Part shown: in pieces, positions 16,742 through 47,939 of the stretch
How the letters are laid out: each line of letters begins with the position of its first letter
Numbering within the stretch: position 1 is the first letter of the stretch
Source: an uncultured Bacilli bacterium
Lineage (GTDB): Bacteria > Bacillota_I > Bacilli_A > RF39 > UBA660
Reading direction: 5' to 3'
DNA: 61,577 nucleotides
Assembly: GCA_947581765.1 (NCBI GenBank)
Contig: CANPVU010000004.1
Location: 1-61,577, forward strand
Notes under the pieces: generated by a model
The model's input: the letters and a program-made list of their open reading frames with translations, nothing else
The model's database searches: none
What the model was told of the DNA's origin: nothing
Position numbers and translations under genes: made by a program

Positions 16742-17351
16742 TCCGTTCTCTAAACATAGAGATTAATATTATGGCATATAATATAGTTAATTTTACGTCA
16801 TAGGTCAAGCAGATTTTCTCTAGTTTCCACAATTCGTTACCAAATTGCGGTTCCCCTTTAAGGAAACCAATACAACATCACTGTTTGTATGGCTTGATTA
16901 CCACTTAGTACGCACTTTAATCCCATATTAAATAACATTCTAGGAGATTTCCTCACCAGTTCATCTATTACTAGTACTCTTTTGCAATAATTGTTTCAAA
17001 TCAATAAACCATTAATAAACTTAGCTACTGTATTATTAATACTCAATTATCCCCAATAATCACTCAAGACAAGCTACACTACCCGCAACTTTCATCACAT
17101 GGTAGGTTTAATCCTAAATCGTATCTGGTCCATCAGTATGGAACGTATAGGCCAAACACAAAAATAGGTCTCCATGAATGCTGGGTCATTTGCACATGCC
17201 ATTGTGGATGCCCAACACTCTACCTTCCAGCATTCACCCTAAACTGGGCGTAAAAAGCAAACACCAGAAGTTTCACAGTTATGCTCTTATGCGGTATTTT
17301 AACCCCGCCCTCATAATAGATGGCTCTGACTAGAATAATGCGCCATCAATA
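16710..17351 (-). ncRNA. ole: OLE RNA (ornate, large, extremophilic RNA)
   Basis: ~640 nt without ORFs, markedly more G+C than its flanks, many long-range pairings (e.g. GAAUGCUGG/CCAGCAUUC, GAUGGC/GCCAUC, CCGCAAUU/AAUUGUGG), own promoter and terminator, and an oapA-like gene directly downstream. Confidence 0.82.
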
Positions 17352-17357
17352 TTCAGT

Positions 17358-17386
17358 ATTTTATCAAATTTAACAATTAATGTCAA
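17358..17386 (-). promoter_or_regulatory. Sigma-A promoter of the OLE RNA
   Basis: Minus strand TTGACA (17386..17381), 17-nt spacer, TAAAAT (17363..17358). Confidence 0.8.
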
Positions 17387-25095: not shown

Positions 25096-26706
25096 TCATC
25101 TAACAAAACTAGATATTTCATTAAAATTAAAGAATAATTTAACATTTTTATCATTGTCTATTTCCACTCTATTTACTAATTCTAAAATAATATTGCGAGA
25201 TGGATGTTTAAATGTTAAAAACTTTTTAAGACATCTAGCACATGAATCATAATCTAATTTTTCAACTTTTTCCAACATTGTATTTTTATCATCTTCTAAT
25301 TGAATCTTTTTATTTGTTGCATTCTTCAATTCATTATCATATTTTTTTAATAAATTATCAAAAATATTTTCAGGAATTTTATTTTCTACTTTATCCATAT
25401 ATAACTGTTCTATAGCAGTATCATATTTTGATATTTCCCTATTAAGCAAATCAATAGATGTTTGTATACTAGTAATTTCTTCTTGTAATATTAAATTAGC
25501 TTCTTCGGTCAAAGATTTAGCATCATATTCTTTTAAAAATTCACTTGCTACATTAGTAATAATATTTATTAAATCTTCTTCCAACAAATTATAATTAATT
25601 CGATGAATATTGCATACTCCATATCTACCCTTTTTTGTATATTGACTACATTGAGTATAATGGGAATTATTACCTTTATTTTTTTTCTCCAAAATTGTTA
25701 ATTTATGCCCACATTCTTTACAAATTAATAAACCACTAAATAAATATTTATCCTTATTTTTCCGGTTGTATTTTACTTTGGCATTTGTTCTTAAAATATC
25801 TTGTACTTCATTGAATGTATTTTTATCAATTATAGGTTCATGCATATCCTCCACTATGATATAATCTTCCGGTGAATTTGAATGTATTTTTTTTGAGTTA
25901 TATCGAGTTTTTTCAAACATATTCTGGACCATATTTCCTATATACATTTCACTTGTTAAAATATCTCTTATAGTTTGATGTCTCCATATACCATAACCAT
26001 CATTTTCCTTAACTGCTGCCCCTCTTGGCTCTTTTTTATATACTATTGGTATAGGAATTTTTTCTTCTGTTAAAATATTTGCAATAGAATAACAACTATA
26101 TCCTTCAAGTGCCATTTTAAAAATTCTTTTAACAACTAATGAAGCAATTGGATCAATTATTAAATGATTATGATTATTTGGATCTTTTAGAAATCCATAT
26201 TTTGGAATTGAACCTATATAATCACCATTAATTTTTTTTGCTTTTAATGCTGATTTTACTTTTTTTGATATATCTCTTAAATAATAATCATTAAAGGCTA
26301 ATTTCATAGAAATCATGTTATCATTATCGTTTAATGAATCATAACCATCATTTATTGCAATATACCTAACACCTTTGTCTTTAAAATAATCCTCTATATA
26401 AGTTCCTGTTTGATATAATTCCCTACCTAATCTTGAGAAGTCCTTTGTAATTACACAATTAATTTTTCCACTTTCAATATCTTCAATCATTCTTTTAAAT
26501 GCTGGCCTATCAAAATTACTACCAGAAAAACCATCATCGACATATTCTTCTACTAATTCAATATTTTGAAATTTACAAAAAGATTCAATAATCATTCTTT
26601 GACTTTCTATAGAAATGCTTTCATCACTTTTTAAATTTTTTGCATCCTCTTTAGACAATCTTAAATAATCACCACTTTTGTATTTTTTACTCATAACGTT
26701 GAACAA
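25096..26706 (-). CDS. Large serine recombinase (TnpX-like)
   Basis: Catalytic resolvase domain (YLRLSKEDA, VDDGFSGSNFDRPAFKRMIEDIESGKINCVITKDFSRLGRE), recombinase domain, zinc ribbon (CKECGHKL...C) and coiled coil. Confidence 0.96.
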   Translation of the reverse strand: MFNVMSKKYKSGDYLRLSKEDAKNLKSDESISIESQRMIIESFCKFQNIELVEEYVDDGFSGSNFDRPAFKRMIEDIESGKINCVITKDFSRLGRELYQTGTYIEDYFKDKGVRYIAINDGYDSLNDNDNMISMKLAFNDYYLRDISKKVKSALKAKKINGDYIGSIPKYGFLKDPNNHNHLIIDPIASLVVKRIFKMALEGYSCYSIANILTEEKIPIPIVYKKEPRGAAVKENDGYGIWRHQTIRDILTSEMYIGNMVQNMFEKTRYNSKKIHSNSPEDYIIVEDMHEPIIDKNTFNEVQDILRTNAKVKYNRKNKDKYLFSGLLICKECGHKLTILEKKNKGNNSHYTQCSQYTKKGRYGVCNIHRINYNLLEEDLINIITNVASEFLKEYDAKSLTEEANLILQEEITSIQTSIDLLNREISKYDTAIEQLYMDKVENKIPENIFDNLLKKYDNELKNATNKKIQLEDDKNTMLEKVEKLDYDSCARCLKKFLTFKHPSRNIILELVNRVEIDNDKNVKLFFNFNEISSFVR

Positions 26707-34091: not shown

Positions 34092-36083
34092 TTATTTTAA
34101 ATAAATCTCTATTTTTGAATTTCTGTTTTTTCTATTTATCTTTTCTTTGTTTGAAATAATTGAAAAATTAAAATTCATGTGTTCAGATAAAGTTGTTAAT
34201 TGTAGAATATCTACATTTGACATGATTGAAGATAAGTATAAATCAACACGATTTACATTGTTATAATTTACATATTGCACTTCATAATCAACATTTATAA
34301 ATATTTTTAAAACTTCATCTATTATTTCATCAAGTTTTCTCTTAATATCATTATTTATTGAATCTAATTCAAATTTTTCAGATTGCACTTTTGATTGTAT
34401 ATCATTATTATTATTCAACTGTATATCTTCAACAGTATAATAAGTATCAACAAGTCTTTGTAAAGGTCTTTTAGTTCTTTCTATTTCTCCAGACCTATAA
34501 CAACTAAATTTTTTATAAATAATAGTATCTCTTAATATTGGATATCCTTTTGTTGGAAATATAATTATCTTATAATGTAATTGTTTTATTTCATCAGCTG
34601 TCATAAGACTTCTACTAATCAATGATGTATTTTTACTACCATTATTATTAATAAAACTCATTGAGTAATTTACTGAAGATGTTAAAACACCATGCGCTCC
34701 TAATCTTTTACTTATTTCATCAGCTGTACTTTGTGTATTTGTTTTTAAATATGCTAACCCACAGTTATCTTGAATAATTTGACTAACTTCTTTACCATAT
34801 AAATTATCCAATTGAGCAAAACTTTGTAAAAAGAAATTAAACCACATACCCCTGCTTCTTGCTACACTAACCATTGTAGTAATATCTGATAATGGTGGTG
34901 TATTAGCAAACTCATCTAACATAAATACTAAATCATAAGGAAGTCTTTTATTTTCTTGCTCATTACATAATAAAACCAAAGTTTTATAAATTAATGAAAC
35001 AATTATAGAAATTAATGAATAGTAGATTTTTGATTCATCTGGAATGCAACAATATAATACGGTAGGTTTCTTACCCAAAACATCAAAATCAAAATCCGAA
35101 TTAGATGTAATATTTTCTACATTGACATCATCATATAAAGTCATTCTTTCATTGAATGTTGATGTTATAGATCTATATGTTGTATCTGATATATTTAATA
35201 TTGGTAATAATTTGTCTTTGCTTTTCATCTCATAAGTTTTAGACTCCATATATTTTTTTAATTTTTTGTTATTTGTTTCTGTCATAGAACTATTTTGAAA
35301 CTTTTTTACAGATGTCAAAGTAATTTGATTTCTATTGATTTTACCATCAGCATATTCTTCCAAAAATAAAAAAATAATGCCATACAATAAATCGGCACTA
35401 CTATTATTCCAAAACTTCTCACGAGCAGTTGTATCATCCATTATCATTTTAGATATATCATTAACCAATTGATTTGCTTCTGCAAAATGAATTATTGATT
35501 TATTTTTATACTCCATTTTTTTATCTTCGTTTATTTCATTTTCACTTAATTTTTTAAAATTATTATATAACTCATATTCCTTTATTACTGGTTCAAGTAA
35601 ATTTATATGATGACTATATTCTGGGTGTCTAAAGTCAAGAGTTATTACATCATAACCATTTTCTTTAAACAATTTACTTGTTGTCGAAAAAATCTCTCCT
35701 TTAGGATCGGTAATAAAAACACTTTTTTTAGTTTTTGCAGTTGCAATAAAAGAGCAACTTGGAATAACAGCAGTAGCACTTTTTCCACTACCTGTAGAAC
35801 CTAAATAAATCCAATGAGGTGTTTCCATATCAAACCATACCTTTTTATTATTTTTACTATAATATATCGGAAAACCACTTTCATCTATATTATCTATATA
35901 TTCTAAATGGAAATTCTTTTTTATTTCAGTTAATGTGGCCCATCTTGCAGATCCATGTTCTTTATTGTCCTTTATTTTTTCTTTTGAAATCAAAGGTTCT
36001 ACAAATAGCAATATAATAATAATTACAAAAATTAATAAACTTACAACTACTAATTGCATTTTATCTTTCCACTTCTTTATCAA
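34092..36083 (-). CDS. VirD4/TraG-type IV coupling protein
   Basis: IYLGSTGSGKSATAVIPS Walker A; LDEFANTPPLSDITTMVSVARSRGMWFNFFLQSFAQLDNLYG. Confidence 0.93.
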   Translation of the reverse strand: MIKKWKDKMQLVVVSLLIFVIIIILLFVEPLISKEKIKDNKEHGSARWATLTEIKKNFHLEYIDNIDESGFPIYYSKNNKKVWFDMETPHWIYLGSTGSGKSATAVIPSCSFIATAKTKKSVFITDPKGEIFSTTSKLFKENGYDVITLDFRHPEYSHHINLLEPVIKEYELYNNFKKLSENEINEDKKMEYKNKSIIHFAEANQLVNDISKMIMDDTTAREKFWNNSSADLLYGIIFLFLEEYADGKINRNQITLTSVKKFQNSSMTETNNKKLKKYMESKTYEMKSKDKLLPILNISDTTYRSITSTFNERMTLYDDVNVENITSNSDFDFDVLGKKPTVLYCCIPDESKIYYSLISIIVSLIYKTLVLLCNEQENKRLPYDLVFMLDEFANTPPLSDITTMVSVARSRGMWFNFFLQSFAQLDNLYGKEVSQIIQDNCGLAYLKTNTQSTADEISKRLGAHGVLTSSVNYSMSFINNNGSKNTSLISRSLMTADEIKQLHYKIIIFPTKGYPILRDTIIYKKFSCYRSGEIERTKRPLQRLVDTYYTVEDIQLNNNNDIQSKVQSEKFELDSINNDIKRKLDEIIDEVLKIFINVDYEVQYVNYNNVNRVDLYLSSIMSNVDILQLTTLSEHMNFNFSIISNKEKINRKNRNSKIEIYLK

Positions 36084-42781: not shown

Positions 42782-43594
42782 TTAATTGATTTTAAGTATA
42801 TCCCCCACCTTAATGATGTATGGAAATTGAATATTATTCAATTTGGCAATATCTTTCCAATTAACATTAAACTTTTTCCCAATTTTTATTAAATAATCTC
42901 CTTTTTGAACTACGTATGTAATCTTATTTTTTAAAAGTTCATCCACTTTATCTTGAATAACTTTATAATCGTATCCTGCCATAGTCAATCGATTTTTCAA
43001 AGTAAGATCATTTCCCCATAATCCATCAATTACTTCATTAGCTACCTCTTCAATAGACTGCTTTTTATCATTAACTTTTATCCAGTTATAAACTTTCTTT
43101 TTAACTTTAACTTGATCACTTAAATAGAGTGCCCTTGTTATATCATATTGGTTATATATTAGCCACGCATAACTCTTAACTTTAGGTTGATATTTTCCCT
43201 TATACCAACCATTACCTTTAAATTTACCTTTACCTGCTGCAATGTGAATATGAGTTCCTGTTGAAATTCCTTTTGTTCCCGGATGATAATATATTTCTCC
43301 TTGTTTAATAATTTGTCCAACACTCAAATTAGAAATATCATTATCATGTAGTGTCATAATAGTCATAAAATCTTTAGTTCCATCTGCATACTCTACTTTA
43401 TCGCTACTTTCTAACCATACAGCATTACAATTTTTATATATTCGTTTTATTACACCAGTAAAAGGTGCTTTTAAATATGTTAATTTAGATATATCGATAG
43501 CTAAGTCACCATTGTGAGAATATGTATCATTCATTTTTTGACTAATATATAATGTATCAACATTAAGTATTGCTTTTTCCATTTTTATTATCAC
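42782..43594 (-). CDS. Endolysin-like protein: M23-like peptidase fold, CW_7 repeat and LysM
   Basis: GTHIHIAAGKG; SIEEVANEVIDGLWGNDLTLKNRLTMAGYDYKVIQDKVDELL (CW_7-like); YVVQKGDYLIKIGKKFNVNWKDIAKLNNI (LysM). Likely start 43582. Confidence 0.8.
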   Translation of the reverse strand: MIIKMEKAILNVDTLYISQKMNDTYSHNGDLAIDISKLTYLKAPFTGVIKRIYKNCNAVWLESSDKVEYADGTKDFMTIMTLHDNDISNLSVGQIIKQGEIYYHPGTKGISTGTHIHIAAGKGKFKGNGWYKGKYQPKVKSYAWLIYNQYDITRALYLSDQVKVKKKVYNWIKVNDKKQSIEEVANEVIDGLWGNDLTLKNRLTMAGYDYKVIQDKVDELLKNKITYVVQKGDYLIKIGKKFNVNWKDIAKLNNIQFPYIIKVGDILKIN

Positions 43595-43769
43595 CTATTC
43601 CTACTTTTTGTTCTATATCTGATAATCTCTCATTCATTAATGACAAAGTTGTTAACATTTCTTTCATAGTTGTATTTTGAAAATATATTAAATAAATAAC
43701 TACACCAACTGCTACTCCCTGATTTGCAACAAGGCTAATAATTCCTTCCATTTTTTCTCCTCCTCTCAT
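43563..43769 (-). CDS. BhlA/UviB-like holin-type protein
   Basis: MEGIISLVANQGVAVGVVIYLIYFQNTTMKEMLTTLSLMNERLSDIEQK: one TM then coiled region, adjacent to endolysin. Probable start at the second Met. Confidence 0.72.
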   Translation of the reverse strand: MRGGEKMEGIISLVANQGVAVGVVIYLIYFQNTTMKEMLTTLSLMNERLSDIEQKVGIGDNKNGKSNT

Positions 43770-43850
43770 AAAAATTTATATAATTAATCACACAAAATAT
43801 AAATATTTTATAATCACATCAATCTTTAAATTAATTTAAATTATCATCCT

Positions 43851-43887
43851 TTCACTATATTCCTCACTTATAACCTTTTTTTGAAGT
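43851..43887 (-). promoter_or_regulatory. Copy A of a 37-nt motif upstream of the holin/endolysin unit
   Basis: ACTTCAAAAAAAGGTTATAAGTGAGGAATATAGTGAA; 31/37 identical and ungapped with copy B (47445..47481). Confidence 0.65.
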
Positions 43888-43896
43888 ATAAAAATA

Positions 43897-43944
43897 AAAA
43901 AACTAGAAAAAATTTTTCCAGTTTAAAATTTTTCTAGTTTAATT
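43897..43944. terminator. Long hairpin downstream of the 233-aa gene
   Basis: AAACTAGAAAAATTTT...AAAATTTTTCTAGTTT-type inverted repeat with T/A runs on both sides (approximate coordinates). Confidence 0.6.
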
Positions 43945-44022
43945 TTTATAAAATAAGAATTTTTAATTGAAATAACAAATCTAAATTTTGAAATTAAAAT
44001 GAAATAATATAACTTAATTAAA

Positions 44023-44724
44023 CTATTTACGATTTTTATATTTCGATATTATATTACTACAAATAATCAGTAATATATTGAATACTATCAAACTTATAAA
44101 AATTTTTTTATATTTTAATTTTAAAGTATTTAATACATTTAATGAGTATTTATTACTTTTATTTATAAAATAATTTTGAAAATCATTATAAATTTCATCT
44201 TCAGATATTAATTTATAAGGAAATTTAGAACGAAAAGATATTTCAATTTTATTTGAAGATTTAAAAAATAAAAGACATGAATCGTTAGTATCATTATAGA
44301 TTATCAAAGGTTCTTTATCTTCTAAAGCTTTTTCTACATCTAAAACTCCTAATTCTTCTAAAAAATTTTGTAAATTAATTTCTGATTTATATTCGCCATA
44401 AATTGATATATCCCCTACGTTTCTTTTGTGACGATCATTTCGCGCTATTGAAAGAAACGCAATTTCATCGAACACTACATAATTATCTTTTGTTAAATCT
44501 ACACCATTAACCATTTTAAAAAATGGATTTTTAATGTCTTTGATATTTATCTTTTCGCTATAATATGAAGAAACAATTATTCTTTTACGAATATAACCAA
44601 TTTCTTTTTTAAATGGATATATCCATTTTAAATATAGTAAAACAAATAATAATAAATTGACTCCAAAAAATATAATAACATTCTTTAATATTTTCATCAC
44701 AAATTGGCCTCCAAAATTTATCAA
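44023..44724 (-). CDS. Uncharacterised two-TM membrane protein
   Basis: 233-aa ORF with N- and C-terminal TM helices and an extracytoplasmic middle; directly after the DUF1906 gene. Confidence 0.6.
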   Translation of the reverse strand: MINFGGQFVMKILKNVIIFFGVNLLLFVLLYLKWIYPFKKEIGYIRKRIIVSSYYSEKINIKDIKNPFFKMVNGVDLTKDNYVVFDEIAFLSIARNDRHKRNVGDISIYGEYKSEINLQNFLEELGVLDVEKALEDKEPLIIYNDTNDSCLLFFKSSNKIEISFRSKFPYKLISEDEIYNDFQNYFINKSNKYSLNVLNTLKLKYKKIFISLIVFNILLIICSNIISKYKNRK

Positions 44725-44821
44725 CTTGATTTATTTCAACTTATAAATAGTATATTTGATTAAAACATTATAATTGCATAATTCTTTAATATTATAGCAT
44801 AATATATTTTAAAGTAAATAA

Positions 44822-47347
44822 TTATCTTCCAGCATTTATTTCATCATATAAATGGTTTTTAAAACTATCAATAGCTGTATCTATATATTTTTGTTCTGCT
44901 TTTGTTATTGTTCCTCTTAATTCTTTTATTGGACTTTCATTTGAATTTATTAATTCACATAATTCATTAAAATGCTTCACTGTCATACATTGTATAAATA
45001 TATTAGCTTTAGCTTTATATGCACATATACCTGTACTAAGTGGTAAAATATAATAATTTAAAAATGCTTCGGGAAGAGTGAAATTTCGTGTATAAATCAT
45101 ATCAAATAAGTTATATGCATCAATATCATCAATATAATCTTTCGAATCGAAAAATTTGTCACCTGGGCGACATATATGTTCTTTTGCCCATTTTTCATAA
45201 TCATATTCTCCATCCTCTTCAAAAGCTATTTTTATTGCTGTTGCAAACGAGATAGTATCTCCTCCCCATCCAGCAAAAGAGTCTACAATTTGATCAAACT
45301 TATTTAATTCAACATTTCCAATCTTATATAACAGTGCATTAAGTACTGCAGCTAGATGTGGAAAATCATGATTAACAATATCTTCATAACTGTCATCCTC
45401 AAAGTCAAAAGTTAAATTATATAATTTTTCATCTACAAGCTCACAATACTTAGTATCAATCGTACCTGCAACAACATCCCATCTAATATTATCTATGAAT
45501 TCCCCTACGTCATCTGCTCTAAAAATTGATGTATCTCCATATCTTTCTTTTCTAATATATTGTAAAACCAACATATTACTTTTCTCTTTATCACCATCTG
45601 TATATTGCAATGCTAAATTATACATATCTAGCAAACTATAGTAAACTTTTCCAATATCGGTTAAATATAAATCTCCTCCTAAACCTAAATCTTTACCTGA
45701 CGTTGCATCTTTATCAATTTCTATTTTTCCATCGCCACTTCCAACTTTAATTGTAGTAAATTGATCAAAAGCCCAATTATCTGGTATGCAAAAGCCAAGA
45801 TTTCCACTAAATCCTGTTGACATGTCACTAACAAAACTATACTTGGCATAACCGGCATTACTAACTTTAGAACAAACATTTCTTGTACCATAAATACTTA
45901 CAGGATACTTATTATTTAATGAATCTTTCATAATAGAACTTAATATTTTAAAGTAAGGTATAATGTAATCGGTAATTTCAGATTCTTGTGGATCACAATC
46001 TACAGCAAAGTAAATACTCGTTCCACTTGGCAGTCCTAATTTAGATGCATGATCAAAGGCATTTAACAAATCATTAGTAGCTCTTTGCACTGTAAAATAT
46101 GAAACAGAATTTGCACTTTGTTGATATATTGGGAATATCCTTAAACCAGCCTCTACTGCTATTTTTAATTCATCAATTGTTAATGCTTTGCTTTCTCCAC
46201 TTGCAATATATCCAGATAAATATCTTCCAACTATGCGATAACCATTATCGTATAAAGTTTTTGCTTTTTCTTTGGTTAAAATAGTAGCACAATCACACGC
46301 AGAAGCTGGTCTTTCTGTGTCACCACAACTTATCAATAATGAAAGCCACGTTGTATAATCTATCTCACCAGTAACAGGTATAACATACTTTGTTTGAAAT
46401 TGACTAATAGTATTTTCTTTTAATGTTGAAGAAATAGTACCATCTCCAAAGCCATTGAAATATAATAACATGTTTGCTAATATTTTAAATTTTTCAATTT
46501 TTTCACTAGAATATGAACTTCCATTATAACTAGTTCCCTTTGAAGTTCCTTCAACTGAAAGAGTTGGCAAACAACTTTTTGTCGATGGTCCACAATTTCC
46601 ATTTGCAACAGACGTAGACATTCCTTCTTCTGCCTGTATTGCATAAATTAAAGCTTTATTTGTTCTTCTTCCATATACTCCATCACATGGACACAAACCT
46701 ATATAATCTTCATAATTTTTATTTAAATATCTTTGCATTTCAATAATATTTTTAGTTCTTGTTGAATTATCATAAGAGTAGAAGTAATCCATAGACATTA
46801 ATGCTTTCATAACATTTACCGTTACATAAGATGTTGTATCTTCCACACCAGCATCTTCTTTTAAATTTCTAATAGCATTACCTGTTCCCGAATAAAAGTT
46901 ACCTGTTGGTTTATTGGTACCGATACTATATCCTTTGCATAATAATGCTCCTTGAACAATTCCAACTATTCTTCTATATTTTATTAATTCTATGACTTTA
47001 TTTTTATTTTCTTCACTCATATCATCTGTATTAAGTGCTTGAAGTTCTTCTAATGATAAAAATTCTAAAGGATCAACTCTATTATCAGGATCTGTTTCTA
47101 CCAATGGTGTAACTGATATATATTCTTTAAATGAATTTTCTGTACTAGGTCCAAAATTATCAACTATTGCACCAACATTTAGTGTAATTTGTAAAGCATG
47201 TACTAATGCATATATTGTAGTCCAACCTGTTTTTCCAGTTACAGTAATTTCTTCATATCCTGGTTCTCCCTTAAAATTTTGATTTACCCATTCTTGAACA
47301 TTTACTATATATGGGTCCATATAATCATCTCCTTCTAATTGTTCCAA
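44822..47347 (-). CDS. Large multidomain protein: peptidoglycan-binding-like repeats, DUF1906 (Rv2525c-like glycoside-hydrolase-like) domain and C-terminal helical region; no signal peptide
   Basis: PG-binding-like KNIIEMQRYLNKNYEDYIGLCPCDGVYGRRTNKALIYAIQAEEG; DUF1906-like SACDCATILTKEKAKTLYDNGYRIVGRYLSG...IYFAVDCDPQESEI. Likely start at MDPYIVNV. Confidence 0.8.
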   Translation of the reverse strand: MEQLEGDDYMDPYIVNVQEWVNQNFKGEPGYEEITVTGKTGWTTIYALVHALQITLNVGAIVDNFGPSTENSFKEYISVTPLVETDPDNRVDPLEFLSLEELQALNTDDMSEENKNKVIELIKYRRIVGIVQGALLCKGYSIGTNKPTGNFYSGTGNAIRNLKEDAGVEDTTSYVTVNVMKALMSMDYFYSYDNSTRTKNIIEMQRYLNKNYEDYIGLCPCDGVYGRRTNKALIYAIQAEEGMSTSVANGNCGPSTKSCLPTLSVEGTSKGTSYNGSSYSSEKIEKFKILANMLLYFNGFGDGTISSTLKENTISQFQTKYVIPVTGEIDYTTWLSLLISCGDTERPASACDCATILTKEKAKTLYDNGYRIVGRYLSGYIASGESKALTIDELKIAVEAGLRIFPIYQQSANSVSYFTVQRATNDLLNAFDHASKLGLPSGTSIYFAVDCDPQESEITDYIIPYFKILSSIMKDSLNNKYPVSIYGTRNVCSKVSNAGYAKYSFVSDMSTGFSGNLGFCIPDNWAFDQFTTIKVGSGDGKIEIDKDATSGKDLGLGGDLYLTDIGKVYYSLLDMYNLALQYTDGDKEKSNMLVLQYIRKERYGDTSIFRADDVGEFIDNIRWDVVAGTIDTKYCELVDEKLYNLTFDFEDDSYEDIVNHDFPHLAAVLNALLYKIGNVELNKFDQIVDSFAGWGGDTISFATAIKIAFEEDGEYDYEKWAKEHICRPGDKFFDSKDYIDDIDAYNLFDMIYTRNFTLPEAFLNYYILPLSTGICAYKAKANIFIQCMTVKHFNELCELINSNESPIKELRGTITKAEQKYIDTAIDSFKNHLYDEINAGR

Positions 47348-47444
47348 TTTATTACTTTTTTTAGAATAAGAATAATATACTAATTACCTGCAGGATTTAA
47401 AAATAAAAGTATTAAATTGAAATATTGCGAAGAGTTTTAAACTC

Positions 47445-47481
47445 TTCACAATATTCCTCATTTATCAAACTTTTTTGAAGT
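47445..47481 (-). promoter_or_regulatory. Copy B of the 37-nt motif, upstream of the 841-aa gene
   Basis: ACTTCAAAAAAGTTTGATAAATGAGGAATATTGTGAA, starting at the sigma-like gene stop codon. Confidence 0.65.
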
Positions 47482-47939
47482 TAATATTTTATATTTTTTA
47501 AAATTTTTTTTAGTCCACCATCTATACTATACTTTATTGCTCTTGGACTGCATCCTTCTTCAATCGAAATTTCTTTTAAAGTTTTGTTTTGAAAAAAATA
47601 CTTTTTTAATCTTCTTTTTTCTATTTCTGGTAATTTATCTATTTCATTTAAAATATTTTCATAAAAAATTTTATTTATTACCATTTCTTCTAATGAATTA
47701 TTAATTATTTTAACTTTTTTATATAACATTTCATCCGTTTGTTCTATATGTTCAGTATGTCTATCATATTCATTCATTATTTTTTTATCTTGTAATTCAA
47801 ATTGATTAAATGCATTATATAGCTCATCACTAATTTTTAATAATTGATTATTTCCTTTACTATCTGTAAAAGATATATGGTTATTATCAACTAATGTATA
47901 TGGATTATATTTATCCTTCCTCCTCTTTACTTTTATCAT
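47481..47939 (-). CDS. Sigma-70 region-4-type regulator of the ICE family
   Basis: IDKLPEIEKRRLKKYFFQNKTLKEISIEEGCSPRAIKYSIDGGLKKIL HTH; N-terminus RRKDKYNPYTLVDNN as recalled for ICE sigma-like proteins. Confidence 0.78.
   Translation of the reverse strand: MIKVKRRKDKYNPYTLVDNNHISFTDSKGNNQLLKISDELYNAFNQFELQDKKIMNEYDRHTEHIEQTDEMLYKKVKIINNSLEEMVINKIFYENILNEIDKLPEIEKRRLKKYFFQNKTLKEISIEEGCSPRAIKYSIDGGLKKILKNIKY

Follow-up and report, generated by a model that had tools for sequence, protein, structure and literature searches.

A motif ahead of two cargo units of a conjugative element is a probable promoter for the sigma-like protein of the same element

Two separate cargo units of a conjugative element from an uncultured Bacilli bacterium are preceded by the same 37-nt motif. 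What reads this motif? The window, meaning the whole stretch of 61,577 nt that was analysed, is chromosomal up to approximately 24.8 kb and carries conjugative-element genes from 25 kb on, including those of a large serine recombinase (25096-26706) and a T4SS coupling protein (34092-36083). The sequence-only reading of the locus had proposed the motif as a promoter for a sigma-like factor encoded next to it, which would make the cargo a regulon. As an alternative it named a shared 5′-UTR element, in which GAGG-N6-GTG could start a tiny leader ORF. A scan of the whole window for known RNA families detected OLE RNA alone (RF01071, full length, 378 bits), at 16755-17362 on the minus strand, in the chromosomal part and away from the motif copies.

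The motif was found as described, at 43851..43887 (copy A) and 47445..47481 (copy B), both on the minus strand. The copies had 0 mismatches to the described pattern, differed from each other at 6 of the 37 positions (31/37 identical) and had the same spacing. Judging by 100 shuffles, 0 matches to the pattern were expected by chance, and copies A and B were the only motif sites in the 1.22-Mb assembly. With 3 mismatches permitted, the extra matches in the organism's own genome equalled the control level. The conserved unit exceeds 37 nt, spanning approximately 42 nt from about -19 to +22 around AAGTGAGG. Scored with a profile of the gene family, copy A reached 31 bits and copy B 15 bits, the best score in 1.38 Mb of shuffled sequence being 12.6. 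Both copies have a -35-like left box, ACTTCAA, located at 43881..43887 in copy A (motif positions -18 to -12) and at 47475..47481 in copy B. The -10-like right core is GTGAGGAATAT in copy A (43857..43867, motif positions 2 to 12) and ATGAGGAATAT in copy B (47451..47461).

All genes of the two units lie on the minus strand. Copy A is the predicted promoter of a unit whose first gene is a small membrane, holin-like ORF (43563..43769), named a holin from its context only, and which also holds an endolysin gene (42782..43594) with a weak M23 peptidase match, CW_7 and LysM. Copy B is the predicted promoter of a unit with an 841-aa gene (44822..47347, likely ATG at 47320), whose product has peptidoglycan-binding and Rv2525c glycoside-hydrolase-like domains and is a relative of phage endolysins, and a 233-aa gene with no function assigned (44023..44724). 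Directly upstream of copy A there is a U-rich, terminator-like hairpin (43889..43942, minus strand, -11.1 kcal/mol), recognised from sequence and fold. Its stem is A/U-rich and was not listed by a G+C-based terminator scan. The hairpin is predicted to act as an insulator between the 233-aa gene and the lysis unit. Since copy A lies a few bases past it, a new transcription unit must start in the gap; judged only by canonical geometry, this start would be near 43850-43852.

As the sequence-only reading had also noted, copy B starts at the stop codon of a sigma-like gene, which encodes 152 aa (47481..47939, minus strand); the overlap is one base, the third of that codon. The C-terminus of the encoded protein is an ECF-type region 4 with matches in both Pfam and the PDB, the Pfam score of 23.7 being just under the curated cut-off of 25.7. 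This domain has the same fold as ECF region 4 of E. coli SigE (2h27). Unlike SigE, the window protein has no SigE-like region 2; in its place there is a beta hairpin at the N-terminus and a single long helix. No sequence match and no fold match to region 2 was detected in the 152-aa protein; residues 56-65, a helical segment that includes NEYDRH (codons at 47745..47774, minus strand), nonetheless covary with the core. Assignment of the protein to the RinA/ArpU family was rejected, as no family profile matched beyond PHROG 36 (transcriptional regulator), and this one only at E 0.008 and via region 4.

Homologues of the 152-aa protein were collected from relatives and from 80 kept loci of public genomes, and a phylum-wide search added few members to the family. 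A search of 143 relatives for the exact motif with at most 3 mismatches gave no match outside the window. The exact pattern was therefore insufficient, and a profile was needed to detect the motifs of relatives. Exact matches to the core in viral contigs were mostly due to chance. The search in related elements that the sequence-only reading had suggested did reveal a family-wide element, of approximately 42 nt and located directly 3′ of the stop codon in 96 of 109 distinct sigma-like genes, with the consensus GRYTWNAMW..TTTTAAGTGAGGAAACAGGTGARRGG. Its core exists in two variants, GAAACA, mostly found with PemK and recombinase elements, and GAATAT, the window type, found with Gp10_C-Rhs cargo in 7/7 such loci of the set examined. 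About a dozen further loci among the relatives had the same motif ahead of Gp10_C/Rhs cassettes, and several Gp10_C/Rhs modules ran on into holin and endolysin genes. The endolysin of the window was 69% identical to an Rhs-module endolysin. A cassette of a sigma-like gene, a Gp10_C baseplate-like protein, an Rhs protein of approximately 2000 aa, a holin and an endolysin was seen in L019, L022, L031, L284 and other loci; this recurrent cassette has the appearance of an effector module that is released by lysis or derived from a phage tail. In L250 and L251, which are an E. faecalis plasmid and a phage-like element of S. suis, a diverged sigma-like gene follows tet(O) and has no motif after it.

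Covariation between protein and motif was scanned without preselection, each residue against each base, in 96 distinct pairs of gene and motif (76 effective). The largest value was 1.03, whereas 200 row shuffles did not exceed 0.29, and only residues 7, 56-65, 122 and 131-140 took part in pairs above this level. Given as residue/motif position, the strongest left-box pairs were 133/-14, 134/-16, 132/-12, 137/-17 and 136/-13, and the strongest core pairs were 60/+4, 56/+5, 65/+11, 57/+5 and 59/+7. Codons 131-140 (47520..47549, minus strand) encode the region-4 recognition helix, on whose predicted structure residues 132, 133, 136, 137 and 140 sit. Many of the mappings were near-deterministic, both in the core (R60 with G in 71/71, N56 with A in 77/77, H56 with G in 19/19 and S65 with C in 68/69) and in the left box (K132 with C in 33/33, M133 with T in 13/13, V133 with A in 10/10, A134 with T in 61/61 and K136 with A in 45/45). 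Further mappings of this kind were N, K or S60 with T, Y132 with G, Q133 with G and Q136 with T. The top pairs held when sequences were weighted at 60% or at 50% and when the larger data halves were used, and covariation was noisier in two data halves of just 12 sequences. In terms of distance, left boxes diverged in step with region 4 of the proteins encoded beside them (r 0.51-0.55), but not with their N-terminal and middle parts; cores diverged in step with the middle part (r 0.41), but not with region 4. The window protein has N56, R60, I65, P132, R133, A134 and K136. Applied to these residues, the code yields the contact bases present in both copies, among them the A at +11 to which the core owes its GAATAT form.

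In most training pairs the motif lay next to its gene, as is usual for this family, and the data therefore contain a degree of common ancestry, which might pass for covariation. The results of sequence weighting, of cluster hold-out and of three sites located away from the gene all speak against ancestry as the cause. When proteins of at least 60% identity were held out, a protein's own motif was beaten by 1.8% of the others on average and ranked in the top 10% for 93 of 96. Copy A of the window and the motifs of L273 and L051 do not adjoin a sigma-like gene, and each of them outscored all 96 family motifs for its own protein; in L273 the motif is followed by a Gp10/Rhs operon, with the sigma-like gene approximately 8.5 kb downstream. 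In addition, the core covaries with residues 56-65, encoded over 200 bp away, rather than with the nearer region-4 DNA. Motifs away from a sigma-like gene co-occurred with such a gene in 13 genomes, against 7.0 expected with recombinase counts matched (p=0.005). This co-occurrence is suggestive only, given that 21 of the 34 genomes with such motifs lacked the gene.

The best explanation is that copies A and B are promoters that the 152-aa protein of the same element reads directly, at fixed spacing, and on the sequence evidence we consider this very probable. Region 4 would read the left box ACTTCAA as the -35, and the helix around residues 56-65 would read the right core, GTGAGGAATAT in copy A, as the -10. 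The proposal of a promoter for the sigma-like factor, with the cargo as its regulon, thus gains support from the covariation over 96 pairs and from the three non-adjacent sites. One recognition sequence stands before two separate units and fits the predicted contact bases of the encoded factor. Both units, the 841-aa cell-wall enzyme unit behind copy B and the holin-like/endolysin unit behind copy A, would be turned on together by the factor. Counting against the promoter explanation are the lack of an enriched sigma-70-type -10 (TANNNT) downstream, the absence of a recognisable region 2 in the protein, the 21 of 34 genomes that have motifs away from a sigma-like gene but no such gene, and the NTG at motif position 14. 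In relatives, a single motif probably serves one long Gp10-Rhs-holin-endolysin unit. The cargo of the window is split into two units, each with its own copy, and would therefore form a two-site regulon.

The 152-aa protein may be a compact sigma factor or an activator working beside another sigma. As an activator it would bind next to the housekeeping RNA polymerase in the manner of RinA/ArpU. The late activators RinA/ArpU of phages are region-4-like regulators whose gene lies directly upstream of the promoter served, and the 152-aa protein resembles them in its small size, in having a region 4-like fold only and in a gene directly upstream of its own target. No homology to them was detected beyond region 4, however, and the window protein appears to read a second half-site. 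Two read modules at about -35/-10 spacing also speak against an activator, as does the lack of enrichment of a separate sigma-A -10: no sigma-70-type -10 (TANNNT) was enriched at any offset downstream. A sigma-A promoter was rejected on the same ground and because promoter-like sites were no commoner than in shuffles. We regard the activator as the less likely form of the protein, though a serious one. It would alter the mechanism only, and the protein would still read both halves.

The motif could instead act in RNA, as a leader (an attenuator or a protein- or ribosome-binding site) whose chief function lies in an alternatively pairing hairpin, the sequence similarity being a consequence of it. 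Several features of the relatives fit such a leader. Their core doubles as arm A, the left one, of a terminator-like hairpin (medians of 17 pairs and of -25 kcal/mol over 70 nt), after which U tracts were enriched (40/68 loci, compared with 8 in shuffles). Since its stem is stable and a U tract comes after it, the hairpin overlapping the core in relatives qualifies as an intrinsic terminator. Arm B, on the right, has a second possible partner in a segment (C) farther along; A:B and B:C pairing was far stronger within a locus than between mismatched loci (p ≤ 2e-4), and A:C pairing was not found. Further elements downstream of the motif in relatives are a boxA-like GTTCTTTGAAAA and a pemK RNA (RF02913), the latter matched in nine tested loci. 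In L004-L011 and L018, approximately 200 nt separate the sigma-like gene from the pemK RNA downstream. Three of these loci (L004, L007 and L009, equivalent to L019, L022 and L025) have Gp10_C/Rhs cargo and no pemK gene was seen in them, so the RNA seems to be part of the sigma-like leader rather than of pemK. The pemK covariance model had no match in the window, though many relatives match. Copy B has an 18-bp hairpin (47419..47457, minus strand, -22.7 kcal/mol) with its core as the left arm, homologous to the hairpins of relatives. Its U tract is poor, and no clear segment C was found for it in the window. Copy A has neither this hairpin nor a terminator-like right arm, yet it retains the sequence, as do the tandem copies of other elements described below; the sequence itself is therefore under constraint. 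Moreover, the covariation links bases of the motif to residues of the sigma-like protein that face DNA, whereas the linker and the right arm (13-22) gave no strong residue-base pairs in the 96-pair scan. An RNA leader is thus an improbable explanation of the motif. Attenuation may occur alongside the promoter, yet it leaves the box unexplained.

If the motif is a promoter, usual geometry would place the start at about motif position 17-19, which in copy B and most relatives would be inside the left arm of the hairpin. A start inside arm A would mean that readthrough from the sigma-like gene is stopped, and that transcripts from the promoter are unable to form the hairpin. In these transcripts arm B may then pair with C.

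The leader ORF fared poorly, and we give it very little credence. Motif positions 14-16 were ATG, GTG or TTG in 88 of 93 copies (58/60 and 30/33), as a start codon would require. However, the reading frame closed after anything from 3 to 80 codons and the peptide was unconserved, and GAGG is missing in a subclade (AGTGCCAAACAAGTGA) that retains the rest of the motif. A recombination (att) or transfer site can practically be dismissed: the family motif is often found beside large serine recombinases, but it is always oriented towards the downstream gene, it covaries with the sigma-like protein, and in the window it is inside the element, ahead of cargo and approximately 17 kb from the recombinase gene.

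When 386 family genomes were searched with the profile, arrays of 2-4 motif copies came to light, spaced 41-67 nt from one another and flanked by a 95-aa ORF on one side and a CcrB-like recombinase on the other. TnpV-like and sometimes NikA-like genes followed, and no sigma-like gene was found beside the array. The conserved 95-aa ORF, without a Pfam or NCBIfam match, was upstream of the tandem promoters in most recombinase elements (L141-L160). Within arrays the -35 boxes differed, with 0 of 51 pairs identical and a mean distance of 0.70 compared with 0.61 for random family members, and the cores were alike (0.14 compared with 0.20). Boxes fitting some sigma-like class well made up 44 of 57 in arrays, compared with 34 of 176 random positions. 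The match between co-resident factors and array boxes was not significant (n=11, p=0.11). We tentatively suggest that the arrays are tandem promoters ahead of the recombinase of mobilizable-type elements that lack the sigma-like gene, with one core and -35 boxes of different classes, so that the factor of any of several helpers could activate the element, the family being compact sigmas that would read the -10 with one helix; this is possible rather than probable. In SetCD/AcaCD-dependent mobilizable islands, the regulator of the helper element times excision (PMC5704250). The arrays differ from these in their tandem promoters with several different -35 boxes, and the helper link is inferred only. 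In L155 (at approximately 5221) and L153 (at approximately 5593), a different large serine recombinase element appears to be inserted in the YVRVS codons of the CcrB-like recombinase gene, which suggests that one transposon family targets the recombinase of another.

Among known systems, TcdR appears by analogy to be the nearest functional parallel. TcdR and the group V clostridial sigmas (a toxin gene sigma with the holin TcdE) are alike, when compared by description, in being sigmas of mobile or variable loci that drive effectors together with a holin. TcdR promoters have a strictly conserved -35 and a weakly conserved -10 (PMC10223161). Unlike TcdR, the window protein has no recognisable region 2 and different boxes; here the promoter is predicted to be fused to a terminator arm, and the cargo consists of cell-wall enzymes or Rhs proteins. 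Conjugative transposons of C. difficile encode small predicted sigma factors in which only the -35-binding HTH is recognisable and to which no targets were assigned (PMC3158075). The likeness to these is again one of description, and the difference is that a probable target promoter and a residue-base code have been identified here. Our literature search, which included few subscription papers, found no paper on promoters of conjugative-element sigma-like proteins, on the residue-base code, on the terminator-embedded arrangement or on the arrays.

Sigma-like proteins are common on the conjugative elements of gut bacteria and were previously predictions without targets (PMC3158075). Target sites and a near-deterministic code, obtained from sequence alone, would make promoters predictable for any member of the family. 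Lysis and effector genes of mobile elements (holin, endolysin and Rhs proteins) would be under the control of an element-encoded factor, in the way seen in clostridial toxin loci. The arrays, if the suggestion is true, offer the testable idea that smaller elements listen to several helper elements.
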